A stretch of DNA of 34,817 bases from a virus, in IMG/VR virus record IMGVR_UViG_3300021376_000184, positions 1 to 34,817 of that record; one strand, written 5' to 3'. Below are positions 1,283-11,651 of this stretch, piece after piece (the first letter of the stretch is position 1; each line of letters opens with the position of its first letter). Position numbers and translations under genes: made by a program. The notes beneath the pieces were generated by a model. That model did not search any database and was not told the origin of the DNA. It saw nothing but the letters and a program-made list of their open reading frames with translations.

Positions 1283-2062
1283 ATGTCTAAAAAAGTAGCA
1301 TGGGATTACATCGTTCCGATAAAAATGCCAGCCGACCTCAAGGGGATAGAGCCGGGCAAACTTCCCGACAACCTCCTGAGAAACGTCGCCGGCGGCGGGA
1401 AACTCCACTGGCGCTGCGCCGACGCGTGGAACGCGATGGTCGCCAAGGCGAAGGCCGACGGCCTCGAGCTCAAGCCAGTCTCGGCCGGCGACACCTACCG
1501 ATCTTACGAATCCCAAAAGAGGGGATTCCTGAGCAGATACCAGACCGAACCCATCGCCGGGGCCTCGACCAAATCGTTCGAGGGCAAGACGTGGTACCTG
1601 AAGAAGGGCATGGCGATGATGGCGACGCCCGGGAAATCAAACCACAACCTCGGGATCGCCGTCGACGTTCACTCTGCGGGGGAGCCGAAGCGGCTGAACT
1701 GGCTGATCGCCAACGTGAAGGATTTCGGATTTTCCTGGGAAGTGGTTCCAAGCGAGCCCTGGCACCTGCGGCTCGTCACGGGCGACCAACCGACGCCGGC
1801 TGTCGTGGCGTTCGCGGCCGGGCAACCCGAAGCCCCCGCCGCTTTGGTCAACCTGGCCACCCCGCCACCGGTGTCCGCGCACAAGGACGACAAGAAGAGT
1901 CTCCAGCAGGCGCTGAAGGACAAGGGCTTCTACGACGGCCCGATCGACGGCAACTTGGGCCCCAAGACCGAGGCCGCCGTCAAGGCATTCAAGGTGGCGA
2001 ACGGCCTCAAGGACGACTCAATCGTCGGGCCGAAGGTCAAGGAACTTCTGGGGCTGAAATGA
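1283..2062 (+). CDS. Endolysin: VanY/M15 D,D-carboxypeptidase-type peptidase plus PG_binding_1
   Basis: This 259-residue protein is predicted to cut peptide cross-links in host peptidoglycan at lysis. Residues ~60-165 hold the M15/VanY zinc peptidase signature: SNHNLGIAVDVH (zinc ligands His121 and Asp128) and SEPWHLR (Glu158 likely catalytic, His161 third ligand). After a Pro/Ala linker, residues ~205-257 form a peptidoglycan-binding type 1 domain (LQQALKDKGFYDGPIDGNLG, then the TEAAVKAFK helix). There is no signal peptide, so it would need a holin; the holin-like gene lies 160 bp downstream. The start is an ATG with AAGGA 7 bases upstream. The next gene overlaps its stop (ATGA). Confidence 0.93.
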   Translation: MSKKVAWDYIVPIKMPADLKGIEPGKLPDNLLRNVAGGGKLHWRCADAWNAMVAKAKADGLELKPVSAGDTYRSYESQKRGFLSRYQTEPIAGASTKSFEGKTWYLKKGMAMMATPGKSNHNLGIAVDVHSAGEPKRLNWLIANVKDFGFSWEVVPSEPWHLRLVTGDQPTPAVVAFAAGQPEAPAALVNLATPPPVSAHKDDKKSLQQALKDKGFYDGPIDGNLGPKTEAAVKAFKVANGLKDDSIVGPKVKELLGLK

Positions 2063-3139: not shown

Positions 3140-3157
3140 TATGTGGGGAGTCTGTTT

Positions 3158-3430
3158 ATGTCAAGCAATGGCAAGGGACAATCACTAGCCGATCTACTGC
3201 TAGAGGCGGTGTCCGATAACAAGGTCTGCAAGCTGAGGACCCTCTTGGGCGCCCTGACAGCCGAAGAACGCAAGGCCCTGGACGTGGCCCTCAGGAGCAA
3301 AGTCGCGACCAGCAAGGTGACGAGGATACTCGAGGCTGGCGGACACAAGATCAACAGGATAGTTCTGGCGGAGAAGCGCAAGTGCTACACGGAATCGGAG
3401 TCGTGCTCATGCCGAACGCCGACAAAGTAA
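3158..3430 (+). CDS. Helical protein upstream of metallophosphoesterase (90 aa)
   Basis: ATG at 3158 is chosen over the in-frame GTG at 3143 because GGGGAG (3145-3150) sits 7 bases before it. The product is helical: LADLLLEAV, then LRTLLGALTAEERKALDVAL and a basic C-terminal half (SKVTRILEAGGHKINRIVLAEKRK) with late Cys residues. The middle could be a small helix-turn-helix, giving a DNA-binding role, but this is a guess. The last 22 bases overlap the start of the metallophosphoesterase gene, so the two are probably co-translated. Confidence 0.75.
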   Translation: MSSNGKGQSLADLLLEAVSDNKVCKLRTLLGALTAEERKALDVALRSKVATSKVTRILEAGGHKINRIVLAEKRKCYTESESCSCRTPTK

Positions 3431-4602
3431 AGGCCAGCAGGGTCGCCGAGCTCCTCTCCAAGGAGGCCAAGGAGGCGAGCGACAAGGGGATCCGGTCGAG
3501 CAACATACAGGCGATAGCGGAGATATTCGAGAAGAGGGGCATAGACCCGGCGGAAGTCGGGGACCTCAAGAGGGTCTCGTTCTACCAGAGCGTGGTCAAG
3601 AGCGAGGAGGGGGATCCGCAGGTGGTCGACCTGACCGCCGTGCAGTTCACCCCCACGTGGGACAACGGGCCCAAGTGGCCGGTCATCATGCCGGGGCCGT
3701 CCTACGCGACGCCAAAACCGACGACAAAATCCAAAAAGGCCGCGGGCTTCCACACGGCGGTCATAGTGCCTGATATACAGATCGGCTTCTACCGCGGCCC
3801 GGACGGAACGCTGGAGCCGACGCACGACGAGGCGGCGATAGAGGTGGCCCTCGCGCTGATATCAGACCTCGACCCCCACGAGATAGTCCTCGTCGGCGAC
3901 AACCTCGACCTGCCGGAAATGGGCAAGTACCTCACCTACCCGACCTACCAGCAGACGACGCAGGCGGCGATAGACAGGGCGGCCCTCTTCTGCGCGCAAC
4001 TGCGAAGGGCGGCGCCCAGCGCGGAGATCACCTGGCTGGCCGGCAACCACGAGGAGCGGATGCCGAAGTACATAGCGACGAACGCGATGGCGGCGTACGG
4101 CCTCAAGCGGGCGAACCAGCCCGAGTCCTGGCCGGTGCTTTCGGTCCCATTCCTTGTGAGGATGGACGACTACGGCATCACCTACAAGCCCGGCTACCCC
4201 GCGGCCGACTACTGGCTGAACGAGAAGCTCAGGGTCATCCACGGCGACAGGGTCAAGTCGAACGGCTCGACGGCCCACGTATATCTCAACCAGGAGAAGA
4301 CCTCGGTGATATACGGGCACATCCACAGGATCGAGACCGCCTACAAGACGCGCGAGGACTACGACGGGCCGAGGACGATAATGGCCGCGAGCCCGGGCTG
4401 CCTCGCGCGCATCGACGGGGCGATACCCTCGACGAAGGGCGGCGTGGACCTGGACGGCAGGCCGCTGACCCGGCACGAGAACTGGCAGCAGGGGCTCGGG
4501 ATCGTCACCTACGAGAAGAAGGGGCAGGCCAAGTTCACCTACGAGTGCGTGCCGATCTACGGGGGCTGGGCGATGAGGAACGGCAAGGAGTACGGGAAGT
4601 GA
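3409..4602 (+). CDS. Calcineurin-like metallophosphoesterase
   Basis: ATG at 3409 is preferred because GGAG lies 8 bases upstream. The 397-residue product has a helical N-terminal region of ~100 residues (possibly DNA-binding) and then a metallophosphoesterase domain with motifs in the canonical order: PDIQ (Asp122), VGDNLD (Asp164), LAGNHEER (Asn213, His214), VIHGD (His278) and YGHIH (His304, His306). Motif I is D-I-Q instead of the usual D-x-H, so one metal ligand may differ. Such enzymes hydrolyse phosphomonoesters or phosphodiesters, often nucleic acids; the substrate here is unknown. ATA and AGG codons are notably frequent for so GC-rich a genome. Its stop overlaps the next start (GTGA). 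Confidence 0.88.
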   Translation: MPNADKVKASRVAELLSKEAKEASDKGIRSSNIQAIAEIFEKRGIDPAEVGDLKRVSFYQSVVKSEEGDPQVVDLTAVQFTPTWDNGPKWPVIMPGPSYATPKPTTKSKKAAGFHTAVIVPDIQIGFYRGPDGTLEPTHDEAAIEVALALISDLDPHEIVLVGDNLDLPEMGKYLTYPTYQQTTQAAIDRAALFCAQLRRAAPSAEITWLAGNHEERMPKYIATNAMAAYGLKRANQPESWPVLSVPFLVRMDDYGITYKPGYPAADYWLNEKLRVIHGDRVKSNGSTAHVYLNQEKTSVIYGHIHRIETAYKTREDYDGPRTIMAASPGCLARIDGAIPSTKGGVDLDGRPLTRHENWQQGLGIVTYEKKGQAKFTYECVPIYGGWAMRNGKEYGK

Positions 4603-4766
4603 ACTTCGGGGACTGGGACGAGGCGTCGATCGACGAAGTGAAGGCGGCGCTGAGCGAGCTGATAAGCATGGGCCTCGTCGAGCCCGCGGGCGTCAGGGAC
4701 GGCGGCGAGTGGACGTACGGCCTGACCGATGCCGGCAAAAAGGTGACGCGACTCTGGGAAGGCTGA
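4599..4766 (+). CDS. Winged-helix-like small protein (55 aa)
   Basis: GTG at 4599 overlaps the metallophosphoesterase stop (GTGA), with AAGGAG 9 bases upstream. The product has a helix (EASIDEVKAALSELISMGLV) followed by a beta-wing-like stretch (WTYGLTDAGKKV), the pattern of the last helix and wing of small winged helix regulators. It is too short for a complete domain, so it may be a minimal DNA-binding or adaptor protein. The function is inferred from pattern only. Confidence 0.65.
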   Translation: MNFGDWDEASIDEVKAALSELISMGLVEPAGVRDGGEWTYGLTDAGKKVTRLWEG

Positions 4767-4769
4767 CCC

Positions 4770-5447
4770 TTGACGACAATCATCGGAATTCAGGGCGACT
4801 CCTACGCCGTGGTGTGCGCTGACTCGCGCGTCACCGAGGTAGACACCAACGGTCTCGCCACCCAGTCGATGAGCCTCAAGGAGGTCGGCTTCAAGATAGC
4901 CCAGAACGGGCGGTGGCTGATGGGCGTGGCCGGCGACGTGAGGGCGATCAACATCCTCTCGCACGCCTTCGCCCCCCCGATGCCGCCGGCGACCTTCAGG
5001 GGCAAGAAGCTCGACCACTTCGTGACGACCAAGTTCATACCGGCCATGAGGGCCTGCTTCGACGCCGAGGGCTACTCGAGCCCGATAACCGAGACTTCGA
5101 CCCACCAGTCGGAGCACGGGTCCATAATAATTACCGCGATCAACGGCGCCATATACGTCATCGACGGCGACTACTCGTGGCTGAACGACTCCTTCGGGGT
5201 CTACGCGATCGGCTCGGGCGCGCAGTTCGCCCTCGGGTCGCTGGCAACCAGCCTGCCCGCCTCGGGGAGGATCGGGCGCAGGACCGCGAGGCTGGCGGCG
5301 CTGAAGGCGATGGGCGTGGCCGGAAAGTACGACCCCGGCACGGCCGCCCCCTACCACGTGATAGTCCAAGAGGCGAGCCAGAGGCGCGCGGGGAAGGCGC
5401 CCAAGGGCAAGCCGCCCAGAGGCACAAGGGCGAAAAAAACCGGCTAG
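4770..5447 (+). CDS. Proteasome beta/HslV-like Ntn hydrolase
   Basis: TTG start, GAAGG 8 bases upstream, 3 bases after the previous stop. The 225-residue protein begins M-TTIIGIQGDSYAVVCADSR. Removal of Met would expose Thr as the N-terminal nucleophile, and the ADSR Asp then becomes residue 17, as in 20S proteasome beta subunits and HslV. A following VGFKI (Lys at mature ~41) may be the catalytic Lys, and YAIGSGAQFALGSL matches the GSG region. No propeptide is present, like HslV. The C-terminal ~30 residues are basic and Gly/Pro/Lys-rich, an addition not typical of the family. No dedicated AAA partner is adjacent. A peptidase or other Ntn-type amidohydrolase activity is inferred. Confidence 0.8.
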   Translation: MTTIIGIQGDSYAVVCADSRVTEVDTNGLATQSMSLKEVGFKIAQNGRWLMGVAGDVRAINILSHAFAPPMPPATFRGKKLDHFVTTKFIPAMRACFDAEGYSSPITETSTHQSEHGSIIITAINGAIYVIDGDYSWLNDSFGVYAIGSGAQFALGSLATSLPASGRIGRRTARLAALKAMGVAGKYDPGTAAPYHVIVQEASQRRAGKAPKGKPPRGTRAKKTG

Positions 5448-5489: not shown

Positions 5490-5849
5490 ATGCCCAAGAA
5501 GAAGAATCCTAAAGTAGCAACACCCAAGGAATACGTCCCCGACTACGTGGCGATCGCTGCTATGCAATCAAAAGGCGGAAACAAGTGGATGAAGAAGGCC
5601 GCGTGCCGGGGCAAGACGAACCTGATGTTCCCCAAGGAGCACAAGGACATCACGTACATCGCCGAGGCGCGGGCGGTCTGCAGGGATTGCCCCGTGAAGA
5701 CCCCCTGCCTCGCCTACGCGATGCAGTACCCGATGGCAGATATACACGGCGTCTGGGCGGGGTTGACCTCCCGGCAGCTGGCGGCGAAGCAGAAGAAGCT
5801 GGGGATAAAACCGGCGAAGCCCACCCTCTCGCAGATGTGGGGGAACTGA
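5490..5849 (+). CDS. whiB: WhiB-family iron-sulfur transcription regulator
   Basis: This 119-residue protein carries the WhiB signature: Cys39, then Cys64-x2-Cys67-x5-Cys73 (AVCRDCPVKTPCLAYA) to bind a [4Fe-4S] cluster, then HGVWAGLT, the G-[VI]-W turn that contacts the host sigma factor, and a basic tail for DNA. WhiB proteins are confined to Actinobacteria and their phages; phage copies such as WhiBTM4 are known to interfere with host septation and superinfection. The ribosome site is weak and the leader may be only a few bases. It is preceded by an operator-like dyad and is the last plus-strand gene before a convergent minus operon. Confidence 0.93.
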   Translation: MPKKKNPKVATPKEYVPDYVAIAAMQSKGGNKWMKKAACRGKTNLMFPKEHKDITYIAEARAVCRDCPVKTPCLAYAMQYPMADIHGVWAGLTSRQLAAKQKKLGIKPAKPTLSQMWGN

Positions 5850-5851
5850 AG

Positions 5852-5925
5852 CGTCCCCGGCAGGAGTCGAACCTGCGACCTGCGGCTTAGGAAGCCGTCG
5901 CTCTATCCGGCTGAGCTACGGGGAC
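5852..5925 (-). tRNA. tRNA-Arg (anticodon CCT)
   Basis: Read on the minus strand, a full cloverleaf is present: 7-bp acceptor GTCCCCG/CGGGGAC, D stem GCTC/GAGC, anticodon stem with loop TTCCTAA (anticodon CCT, one A-C mismatch at 27-43), 5-base variable loop, and T arm GCAGG-TTCGACT-CCTGC. CCA is not encoded. It reads AGG, a codon rare in high-GC actinobacteria but common in this window, so it likely supports phage translation. Its first base overlaps the stop codon of the upstream minus-strand gene, so it is probably cut from an mRNA. Confidence 0.92.
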
Positions 5926-9474: not shown

Positions 9475-10920
9475 CTACCTCGGTCGCCCTGCCCCGACAT
9501 CTTTCTTGAGCTTGTCGAGGAGGCTCTTGGCCTCCTTGACGTTCCTGACCACGAGTATCTTCTCTCGCGCCACGAATTTGCTCGCCATCTTGTTTAGTGC
9601 CGGGTGGAATTGGTCGTTCTTCCCCGACACCTGGCAATCGCTCACCCAAACTATCGGCGAGTTCGGGCGTTGCTTGTGCTTCACCGCCCACTTGAGGGCG
9701 GGGAGGTCGACCACGTTGCCCGACCGGAATTGCGGCACGTCGCCCTCCTTGCAGATCCTGCCCTTGTCGGCGAGGACCCAGAAGTTCGGCTCGTCGTCGT
9801 GGTCGCGACGCTCCGTGTACATGGCGACCGTGCAGCCCGGTGCGGCCTCGGCTATCTCTCTCACGTCTCTGTGCTCGAACGACATGGACCCGCTCGCGTC
9901 TATGATGACCACGCCGCCCATGCCTTTGCTGGTACGGTCGAATATCTTGCGGTCGGTGAAGTAGCGGTGCATACGGCGCGGGTTCTTGCCCGTGTCGCTG
10001 GCGACTCGCTTCTTGCCGAGGTTGCCCTTGCTCGCGTGGGGCATGGGCAGTCTCGCCACCCTGAGGTTGCCCCAGTCGGGGATGACGCCCGCGTCGGGCC
10101 TCGATCGCTTCGTCGGGTCGCTCGGCTCGCGCCTCGTCGGCTTCTTGGTCTCGGGCACGTCCTTCTCGGCGGTCTCGGGCTTCTCGGCGCCGGTCGGATC
10201 GGTCGGGGTCGTGGCGTCGGACTCGTCGCCCGACTCGCGCTCCCTGTCTCGGCGCTCGTCCTCCTCGCGCTCGTTTTCCATGTCCTCGATGAGCGAGTCC
10301 ACCCACGCCGCTATGCGCTCGGTGTGCGCGAACCCTCCGGCTTGCGTCTTGGTGGCGACCCTGCCGAGCTCGGCGCTCGGCACGGCGTCCACTTGGGCGA
10401 GCACGTTCTGCTGGATGCTGGCGATGACCTTGGCCATCCCCTTGTCCACAGACCGGACGCCCTTGATCAAATCCTTGCCCCCAGCCGTGCCCGCGGTGGC
10501 GACCGCGGCCCTCACCATCTGCGCTATGTCGCCGCTCTTGGCGAGTTTCTTGCCCAAAGAGTTCTCTGAGCTGTCGGTCAGGTGGCTCGCCACGTCTATC
10601 CCGACGCGGTTGCATAGCGAGTTCACCCGGACCTCCTCGACGGCCCTGAGCGACTCCACCGACGCGTTCTCGCGCGCGAAGTAGTCGATCATCTCTGCCG
10701 GTCCTGGCGAGACCTTGGCATGCATCATCTCGTGGGCGCGTATCGCCCGGTCGAGCTCGTCCTCGCCGTGAGGCGCGACCATCTTTCGCTCGTGGAGGTC
10801 CGTGTGGGGTATGCCGCGCGTGGCGGGCGAGTCGCCCACCACCCAGCGTCCGTGCTCCTGGTCGCTCCTCCCCAGCATTTCCGGCTGGGGCGAGCGCTTG
10901 CGTTCGGCTGTCTTATTCAT
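9475..10920 (-). CDS. VWA-domain protein with N-terminal HExxH metallopeptidase-like region
   Basis: This 481-residue partner of the MoxR ATPase has three visible parts. Residues ~40-115 include AIRAHEMMHAK (HExxH, 63-67) and a downstream Glu pair (EEVRVN, 95-96), as in zincin metallopeptidases. Residues ~215-275 are a charged Glu/Arg/Lys linker. Residues ~335-480 form a von Willebrand A domain with MIDAS motif DASGSMS (341-347). The layout resembles CobT-like and DUF2201-type proteins that work with MoxR AAA+ ATPases. It is co-translated with the ATPase (TGATG). Role inferred: ATP-driven remodelling, metal insertion or targeted proteolysis; the target is unknown. Confidence 0.85.
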   Translation of the reverse strand: MNKTAERKRSPQPEMLGRSDQEHGRWVVGDSPATRGIPHTDLHERKMVAPHGEDELDRAIRAHEMMHAKVSPGPAEMIDYFARENASVESLRAVEEVRVNSLCNRVGIDVASHLTDSSENSLGKKLAKSGDIAQMVRAAVATAGTAGGKDLIKGVRSVDKGMAKVIASIQQNVLAQVDAVPSAELGRVATKTQAGGFAHTERIAAWVDSLIEDMENEREEDERRDRERESGDESDATTPTDPTGAEKPETAEKDVPETKKPTRREPSDPTKRSRPDAGVIPDWGNLRVARLPMPHASKGNLGKKRVASDTGKNPRRMHRYFTDRKIFDRTSKGMGGVVIIDASGSMSFEHRDVREIAEAAPGCTVAMYTERRDHDDEPNFWVLADKGRICKEGDVPQFRSGNVVDLPALKWAVKHKQRPNSPIVWVSDCQVSGKNDQFHPALNKMASKFVAREKILVVRNVKEAKSLLDKLKKDVGAGRPR

Positions 10921-11651
10921 CAGGCGACCCCGTCCACCTTGATCGCGTCGAGCAGGTCGCCCGAGCGGTCAAGGAATATAATTTTCGCCGCCTTCTTGTC
11001 GCCCAGTTCGGTGCGAAGTCGGTCGAAGTCGTAGAACGCCCGAAGCGAGATGCGTCGCTCGCCTGCGTCGGCCATGCGAATGGCGAACTTGTGCAGGTCG
11101 GGCGACAACCGCTTGAGGGCGTCGGGGTGAGGCTGGTTGATTCGCACGCGGACCGGGAATCGGTCGGCGAGTGCGGTCGGCAACTCCTCCATCTGCTCGA
11201 GGTTCGTGGTCATCACCGCGCTGAAGCCGGCGAGAGGACGGATCACCTCGCCGCTCGTCGGGTGCGTCCAAGACGCCGACTCTGCCGTGTCGAGCATCGC
11301 GAGCAATGTCGCCGCGACGTCGCCGCTCGCCTTGTCGATCTCGTCCACGACGAGCCTGCCGCCCCTCTTACCGTCGCCCTGCCAAGCCTTGAGGGCCGAG
11401 CCGTAGTTCCAGGTGAACGTTCCCTTCTCGTTCGGGATGAAGCACCCCGTCACTTCCGCGGTGGTCATGTCCTCGGTGCAGATGAGCCGGTGCGAGCCTG
11501 CTTGGACGTCGCCGTAGGCGAGGCCTGCGTAGGTCTTGCCGAGTCCCGGCGGCCCGAACAGGATCAGTCGGTCAATGCCTGCGTTGAGGCACTCCTCTAC
11601 TGTCTGCCAGCACTCGGGGAGTGCGGGCTTGGTCTTACTTGTCGTGGTCAT
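10920..11651 (-). CDS. MoxR-family AAA+ ATPase
   Basis: The 243-residue protein has Walker A GPPGLGKT (33-40), Walker B RLVVDEIDKA (99-108), sensor-1 MTTN (Asn150) and an arginine-finger context ADRFPVRV (Arg164), the order seen in MoxR/CobS-type AAA+ proteins. These pair with VWA-domain proteins, and the next gene is exactly that, overlapping by one base. The enzyme would hydrolyse ATP to remodel a target recruited by the VWA partner. AAAGGAG precedes the ATG. Transcription is from the P-type promoter just upstream, inside the end of the preceding gene. Confidence 0.9.
   Translation of the reverse strand: MTTTSKTKPALPECWQTVEECLNAGIDRLILFGPPGLGKTYAGLAYGDVQAGSHRLICTEDMTTAEVTGCFIPNEKGTFTWNYGSALKAWQGDGKRGGRLVVDEIDKASGDVAATLLAMLDTAESASWTHPTSGEVIRPLAGFSAVMTTNLEQMEELPTALADRFPVRVRINQPHPDALKRLSPDLHKFAIRMADAGERRISLRAFYDFDRLRTELGDKKAAKIIFLDRSGDLLDAIKVDGVA

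Follow-up and report, generated by a model that had tools for sequence, protein, structure and literature searches.

The frame at positions 4770..5447 (plus strand) of the viral DNA analyzed here, whose whole stretch of 34,817 nucleotides is referred to as the window, raises the question of whether a phage can carry a proteasome-type peptidase that acts by itself, as an earlier note on this DNA had suggested in describing its product as a stand-alone proteasome-like Ntn hydrolase. The frame starts with TTG and encodes 225 aa, with a core of residues 1-200 followed by a variable basic tail; its N-terminus reads L(M)TTIIGIQGD, Thr1 being residue 2 of the ORF. As the DNA is GC-rich and 4770-5447 shares sequence with a 336-aa ORF on the antisense strand, the length of the frame proves nothing alone. 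Moreover, the window sequence by itself falls below the Pfam cut-off (18.8 bits vs. 22.4), and it is therefore the evidence from the family that carries the claim: PF00227 was matched by all aligned family members (30/30; best E-value 1.8e-8), the PHROG_1040 profile ('peptidase HslV family') matches residues 2-210 of the Ntn protein (3.8e-20), and 101 stretches related to the gene were found in IMG/VR, 80 of which were kept. Purifying selection is strong, with dN/dS values of 0.034-0.066 in seven close pairs, synonymous sites being saturated between the window gene and its own nearest relatives. Altogether, the sequence data confirm that 4770-5447 is a genuine gene and not a chance ORF.

Conservation of the active site was evaluated in 50 distinct viral sequences, in which Thr1, Thr2, Asp17 (counted from Thr1), Lys41, Gly51, Gly54, Asp55, Arg57 and Asn60 are invariant (50/50), Thr1 immediately following the Met in every one of them. 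The match of the TTIIG start and of Asp17 to the active sites of 20S beta and HslV, put forward in the earlier note, is thus borne out. Lys41 lies in a K-I/V pattern ahead of the Gly-rich strand and corresponds to Lys33 of 20S beta, while Gly51 is the equivalent of the oxyanion Gly47; the lysine is shifted because approximately eight extra residues are present between S2/S3 and S4. When Thr1, Asp17 and the Lys33-equivalent were followed across homologues, as had been recommended, all three were kept, with Lys33 corrected to Lys41, and no homologue was found to lack the N-terminal Thr or the Lys. The claimed absence of a propeptide also holds: the codons preceding TTG4770 are TGA-CCC, which places an in-frame stop two codons upstream and therefore makes a propeptide impossible for the Ntn protein, and in many relatives, too, the frame is closed by a stop within one or a few codons 5' of M-TTIIG. 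W136, Y134 and the PPxPP motifs are invariant as well.

An AlphaFold2 model built with 32 homologues (mean pLDDT 86.5) predicts an alpha-beta-beta-alpha arrangement whose strands and helices follow one another as in proteasome beta subunits, helices H1 to H4 spanning residues 57-65, 78-99, 151-161 and 170-187, respectively. Searching the PDB with Foldseek returned BPH first (5ovs, E-value 6e-11, target TM 0.74) and HslV next, with E-values ranging from 6e-11 to 6e-10; the closest solved folds are those of Ntn hydrolases, as had been anticipated. The loop of approximately 19 residues after H2 (100-118) is long and modelled with low confidence; it lies where BPH has its pore loop, without being strongly acidic. 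In HslV, the loop after H2 is a short linker (PMC5777263), while in BPH a long post-H2 loop accompanies the absence of an unfoldase (PMC5777263; PMC8665760). Regarding the basic tail to which attention had been drawn, it is indeed present in the window protein, but across relatives it varies from none to 30 residues and is absent from several of them; as it is unconserved, the tail was rejected as a functional element.

To which family the protein belongs was addressed by profile and tree analyses. A profile search against PDB sequences gave HslV (6e-6), BPH (9.9e-6), archaeal 20S beta (8e-5) and actinobacterial 20S beta 1q5q (0.08), the top line of that search, alphaRep, being a chance repeat match; searched with the single window sequence, the PDB returned unrelated repeat proteins only. 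Membership in HslV proper was rejected, with scores of 19.6 bits vs. a 137-bit cut-off (NF003964) and 17.7 vs. 157.75 (TIGR03692), and a recent capture of a host PrcB is not supported either, as the profile is nearest to HslV and BPH, reaches 1q5q only at 0.08, and the protein groups with AAH-like proteins. Proteins labelled here as AAH-like, by homology and taxonomy rather than against the sequences of Fuchs et al., occur on rhizobial plasmids, one Streptomyces plasmid and one Bacillus plasmid, and in Psychrobacter phage D'Alembert; they start with MTCIVG or MTVIVG and keep Asp17 and Lys. The window clade aligns with those of rhizobia and Streptomyces over 178 columns (hhalign E-value 3.9e-26). 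In the tree, AAH-like proteins form one clade (100/100), separated from the window-type phage proteins by a long branch; the placement of HslV and of two phage sequences, each on a very long branch, is unsure. The best reading of sequences and model is that the Ntn protein belongs to the group I proteasome homologues (HslV/BPH/AAH-like).

By sequence, the window-type proteins form a virus-only clade, in which no cellular member was found; the sole match among GTDB contigs, L083 (JAURLY010000091.1), is a phage contig inside a gammaproteobacterial MAG. It carries the order endolysin, phosphoesterase, Ntn and WhiB, as in the window phage, on which grounds a cellular origin of the clade was rejected, and is probably a misbinned actinophage contig. 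The AAH-like genes have settings of their own. On Sinorhizobium symbiotic plasmids (L094:3001-3546 and L106:2950-3495), an AAH-like homologue annotated as hypothetical lies between nifQ and iron-sulfur assembly/nifS genes, and the gene is also present on other rhizobial plasmids; a role of the rhizobial protein in nitrogen-fixing symbiosis is possible. On the 200-kb Bacillus paralicheniformis plasmid pBP1 (L093), which may be a phage-plasmid, the AAH-like gene is near genes for an AAA ATPase, DUF1257, DUF2997 and thymidylate synthase.

Compared with known systems, the window protein resembles AAH (Fuchs, Alva and Lupas 2021, PMC8665760) in belonging to group I, in carrying Thr1/Asp17/Lys without a propeptide, in occurring in phages and in having no known AAA+ partner. 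It differs from AAH-like cellular proteins in its signatures, TTIIGIQGD and AGDxRAIN in the window clade as opposed to TCIVG and TSSFR, and in the longer S2-S4 region and post-H2 loop of that clade. BPH (PDB 5ovs, 5ovt, 5ovu) shares Thr1, the long post-H2 loop and the lack of a known unfoldase, and is the top fold match, but it is cellular, is approximately 17% identical to the window protein, and has a strongly acidic pore loop; BPH itself forms a tetradecameric double ring. HslV has the same fold, Thr1-Asp17-Lys and Gly-rich strand, whereas the window gene has no HslU nearby, its product has a longer post-H2 loop, and only the C-terminal half can be aligned to HslV by sequence. PPH, from phages and their hosts, is likewise a proteasome-like protein encoded by phages, but has approximately 140 residues and lacks H2, while the window protein has 225 residues, a core of approximately 200, and both H1 and H2 in the model. 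Actinobacterial PrcB, in turn, is set apart by the missing propeptide of the window protein and by its closest similarity lying elsewhere. Two phage proteins are annotated in similar terms: WJZ48484.1 of DSL-LC01, an 'ATP-dependent protease subunit' of the same family (44% identity), and A0A6J7XBU4, an 'HslV peptidase subunit' from an uncultured Caudovirales phage (35% identity; TM 0.92, target-normalised, predicted structure). In both cases the function is by annotation only, and the DSL-LC01 paper mentions neither HslV nor this protease (PMC10611076). A culturable relative, Microbacterium phage Pumpernickel, encodes a more distant counterpart (gene 135, 28% identity).

Based on the sequence conservation and the model, we favor the reading that the protein is a catalytically competent, probably double-ring, group-I threonine peptidase acting without a dedicated unfoldase. 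The initiator Met would be removed by methionine aminopeptidase, exposing Thr1, and subunits would assemble into a closed double ring, like HslV or BPH. The flexible loop 100-118 after H2 may control entry in place of an ATPase, and the particle could then, independently of ATP, cleave proteins of the phage or the host in the course of infection, be they unfolded, nascent or recognised specifically. Two relatives caution that proteolysis and ring assembly need not follow: BPH forms a barrel and its active site can be labelled, with Thr1 intact, yet standard assays detected no protease activity for it (PMC5777263), and connectase, with the same active site, is a monomeric ligase (PMC8665760).

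The latter precedent suggests a different reading, in which the protein is a specialised ligase, transpeptidase or site-specific processing enzyme, and not a degradative protease. The approximately eight extra residues between S2/S3 and S4 fall at the insertion site of connectase (PMC8665760), and the invariant W136, Y134 and PPxPP motifs suggest a specific surface. Nevertheless, the insertion is modelled as a short strand extension instead of a two-helix lid, and H1 and H2, absent from connectase, are both modelled, so we regard a connectase-like activity as unlikely.

The gene neighbourhood bears on both the host and the time of action. On the same strand, upstream, the window encodes an endolysin with a VanY-type peptidase (4.3e-15) and a peptidoglycan-binding domain (1283..2062), a 95-aa ORF (3143..3430; 60% identity to L002) corresponding to the gene that relatives carry ahead of the metallophosphoesterase, and the calcineurin-like metallophosphoesterase itself (3409..4602; PHROG_20266, 2.9e-82), in the same operon as the Ntn gene. 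Between the metallophosphoesterase and Ntn genes lies a small winged-helix-like ORF (4599..4766, plus strand) with weak family matches, whose GTG start overlaps the metallophosphoesterase stop (GTGA) and which terminates 3 bp ahead of TTG4770. Upstream sequence of 1.5 kb or more was available for 37 distinct relatives, of which 32 have a metallophosphoesterase gene upstream of the Ntn gene; in 31 of these 32 it lies within approximately 250 bp (2.4 kb in L072), and in several it abuts or overlaps the Ntn start. Among whole records, it adjoins the Ntn gene in all ten that hold it, and eight records have the Ntn gene without it. Directly downstream is a WhiB-family regulator (5490..5849, plus strand; PF02467, 5.3e-15), followed by a tRNA-Arg (CCT) on the minus strand (5851-5925) that separates it from a divergent gene block. 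WhiB lies downstream of the Ntn gene in 29/39 testable relatives and serves as an actinophage marker (PMC6802176), thus indicating an actinobacterial host; from this gene content, the window phage probably infects actinobacteria. The placement of the gene in a late or lysis region, made in the earlier note, is supported in part: endolysin and metallophosphoesterase precede the gene and a sister group has it next to portal and capsid, but a WhiB regulator is also adjacent.

In that group (L057/L061), the endolysin, phosphoesterase and Ntn genes come first and are followed by those for a small membrane-like protein, portal, coiled-coil protein and major capsid. This raises the possibility that the Ntn protein serves in head assembly, where it would cleave away scaffold or trim capsid proteins, replacing the usual prohead protease. 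The Ntn gene of L057/L061 sits between metallophosphoesterase and portal; after these come a scaffold-like coiled-coil protein of 262 aa and the major capsid protein, and no protease is encoded between portal and capsid. In the G013 contig of this group, searches for S78, S77 and ClpP-type proteases returned nothing, the S77 search being silent in controls too and hence uninformative. However, six contigs of the window clade, 150-173 kb in length (G002, G003, G005, G006, G008 and G009), encode an S78 prohead-protease domain, as does DSL-LC01, and elsewhere the Ntn gene is kept without portal neighbours. These S78 domains sit far from the Ntn gene, in very large ORFs of approximately 1,700 to 4,900 residues (G002:C1:44127-44570, G006:C1:114140-114577 and others), which suggests that the domain is part of a giant fused structural protein. 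With an S78 domain already there, a head-protease role is unlikely in the window's clade and possible in the L057 group; we give this explanation a small chance.

Action without a dedicated unfoldase, as in the reading favored above, depends on which ATPases accompany the gene. The earlier note had stated that a partner ATPase is missing, and this is correct as far as HslU/ClpX-type proteins (AAA_2) are concerned, none of which passed the cut-off in the window, a 34.8-kb fragment, or in window-clade records; nevertheless, the window does encode a MoxR-type AAA_5 ATPase (10920..11651, minus strand; 4.4e-12), the sole AAA+ found in it, paired with a VWA/CobT-like protein (9475..10920, minus strand; PHROG_33218), the VWA assignment coming from the sequence and the DSL-LC01 counterpart, with no Pfam match. 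Order and strand of this pair are kept in many window-clade relatives, and the pair is also found in DSL-LC01. Another partner may lie elsewhere in the phage, although a related 150.9-kb contig has the AAA_5 ATPase alone over the cut-off. The Ntn hydrolase could accordingly be imagined as the proteolytic partner of the MoxR-type AAA+/VWA pair, in an HslUV-like two-component machine. Searches for AAA_2, AAA_5 and AAA in 18 Ntn-carrying records found AAA_5 over the cut-off in 14, and many loci of the window clade with long enough flanks have the AAA/VWA genes 6-9 kb downstream, the same pair recurring in DSL-LC01. As for the base rate in phages, tblastn with the window AAA_5 copy returned two records only, too divergent for use. 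Against such a machine, four carriers of the Ntn gene gave no AAA_5 match, namely G007, G010, G013 (G007 and G013 being fragments) and Psychrobacter phage D'Alembert, and G011 and G012 show a Clp-D2-like ATPase together with Ycf46-like ATPases instead. In addition, the pair is on the opposite strand, its ATPase already has a VWA partner, and no MoxR protein is known to act as an unfoldase that feeds a protease; we thus consider this partnership unlikely. A dedicated AAA+ partner for the whole family was rejected too, since the kinds of AAA+ differ between groups and AAA_5 was not found in four records. That no single AAA+ accompanies the Ntn protein everywhere fits with Fuchs et al., by whom no AAA+ partner could be identified (PMC8665760). 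The ClpB/ClpA D2-like AAA+ (G012:C1:193902-194450, L097; PHROG_4871 'ATP-dependent protease', 3e-102) occurs in two large Ntn-carrying phages, in which it is a possible unfoldase partner.

Finally, the earlier suggestion that the protein mimics or poisons the host 20S proteasome is highly improbable, and so is co-assembly with it: Actinomycetota often have 20S proteasomes and the downstream WhiB gene supports such a host, but homology is closest to BPH, HslV and AAH-like proteins and not to PrcB (1q5q at 0.08), and the phage group is an independent clade with long loops of its own.

Proteasome-like proteins of phages were described in 2021 (PMC8665760), and databases annotate them as HslV-like. 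What is new here is a virus-only clade across large, mostly WhiB-carrying phages, the linkage of its Ntn gene to a phosphoesterase gene, and its likely presence in actinobacteriophages, where AAH had not been found. In fact, Fuchs et al. reported no AAH in actinobacteria-specific phages (PMC8665760), and the clade would fill this gap of 2021, when AAH-type proteins were not known from any actinobacteriophage. As a broader and tentative proposal, possible rather than likely in its entirety, this virus-only proteasome branch of large, mostly actinobacterial phages may be an ATP-independent compartmental protease, co-translated with the phosphoesterase, that would reshape the host or phage proteome, or process head proteins in L057-type phages, during infection. 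For group-I proteasome homologues, active sites are in place although no biological role has been assigned, and in this clade, with its purifying selection and fixed gene neighbour, a knock-out phenotype would be measurable within one infection cycle.
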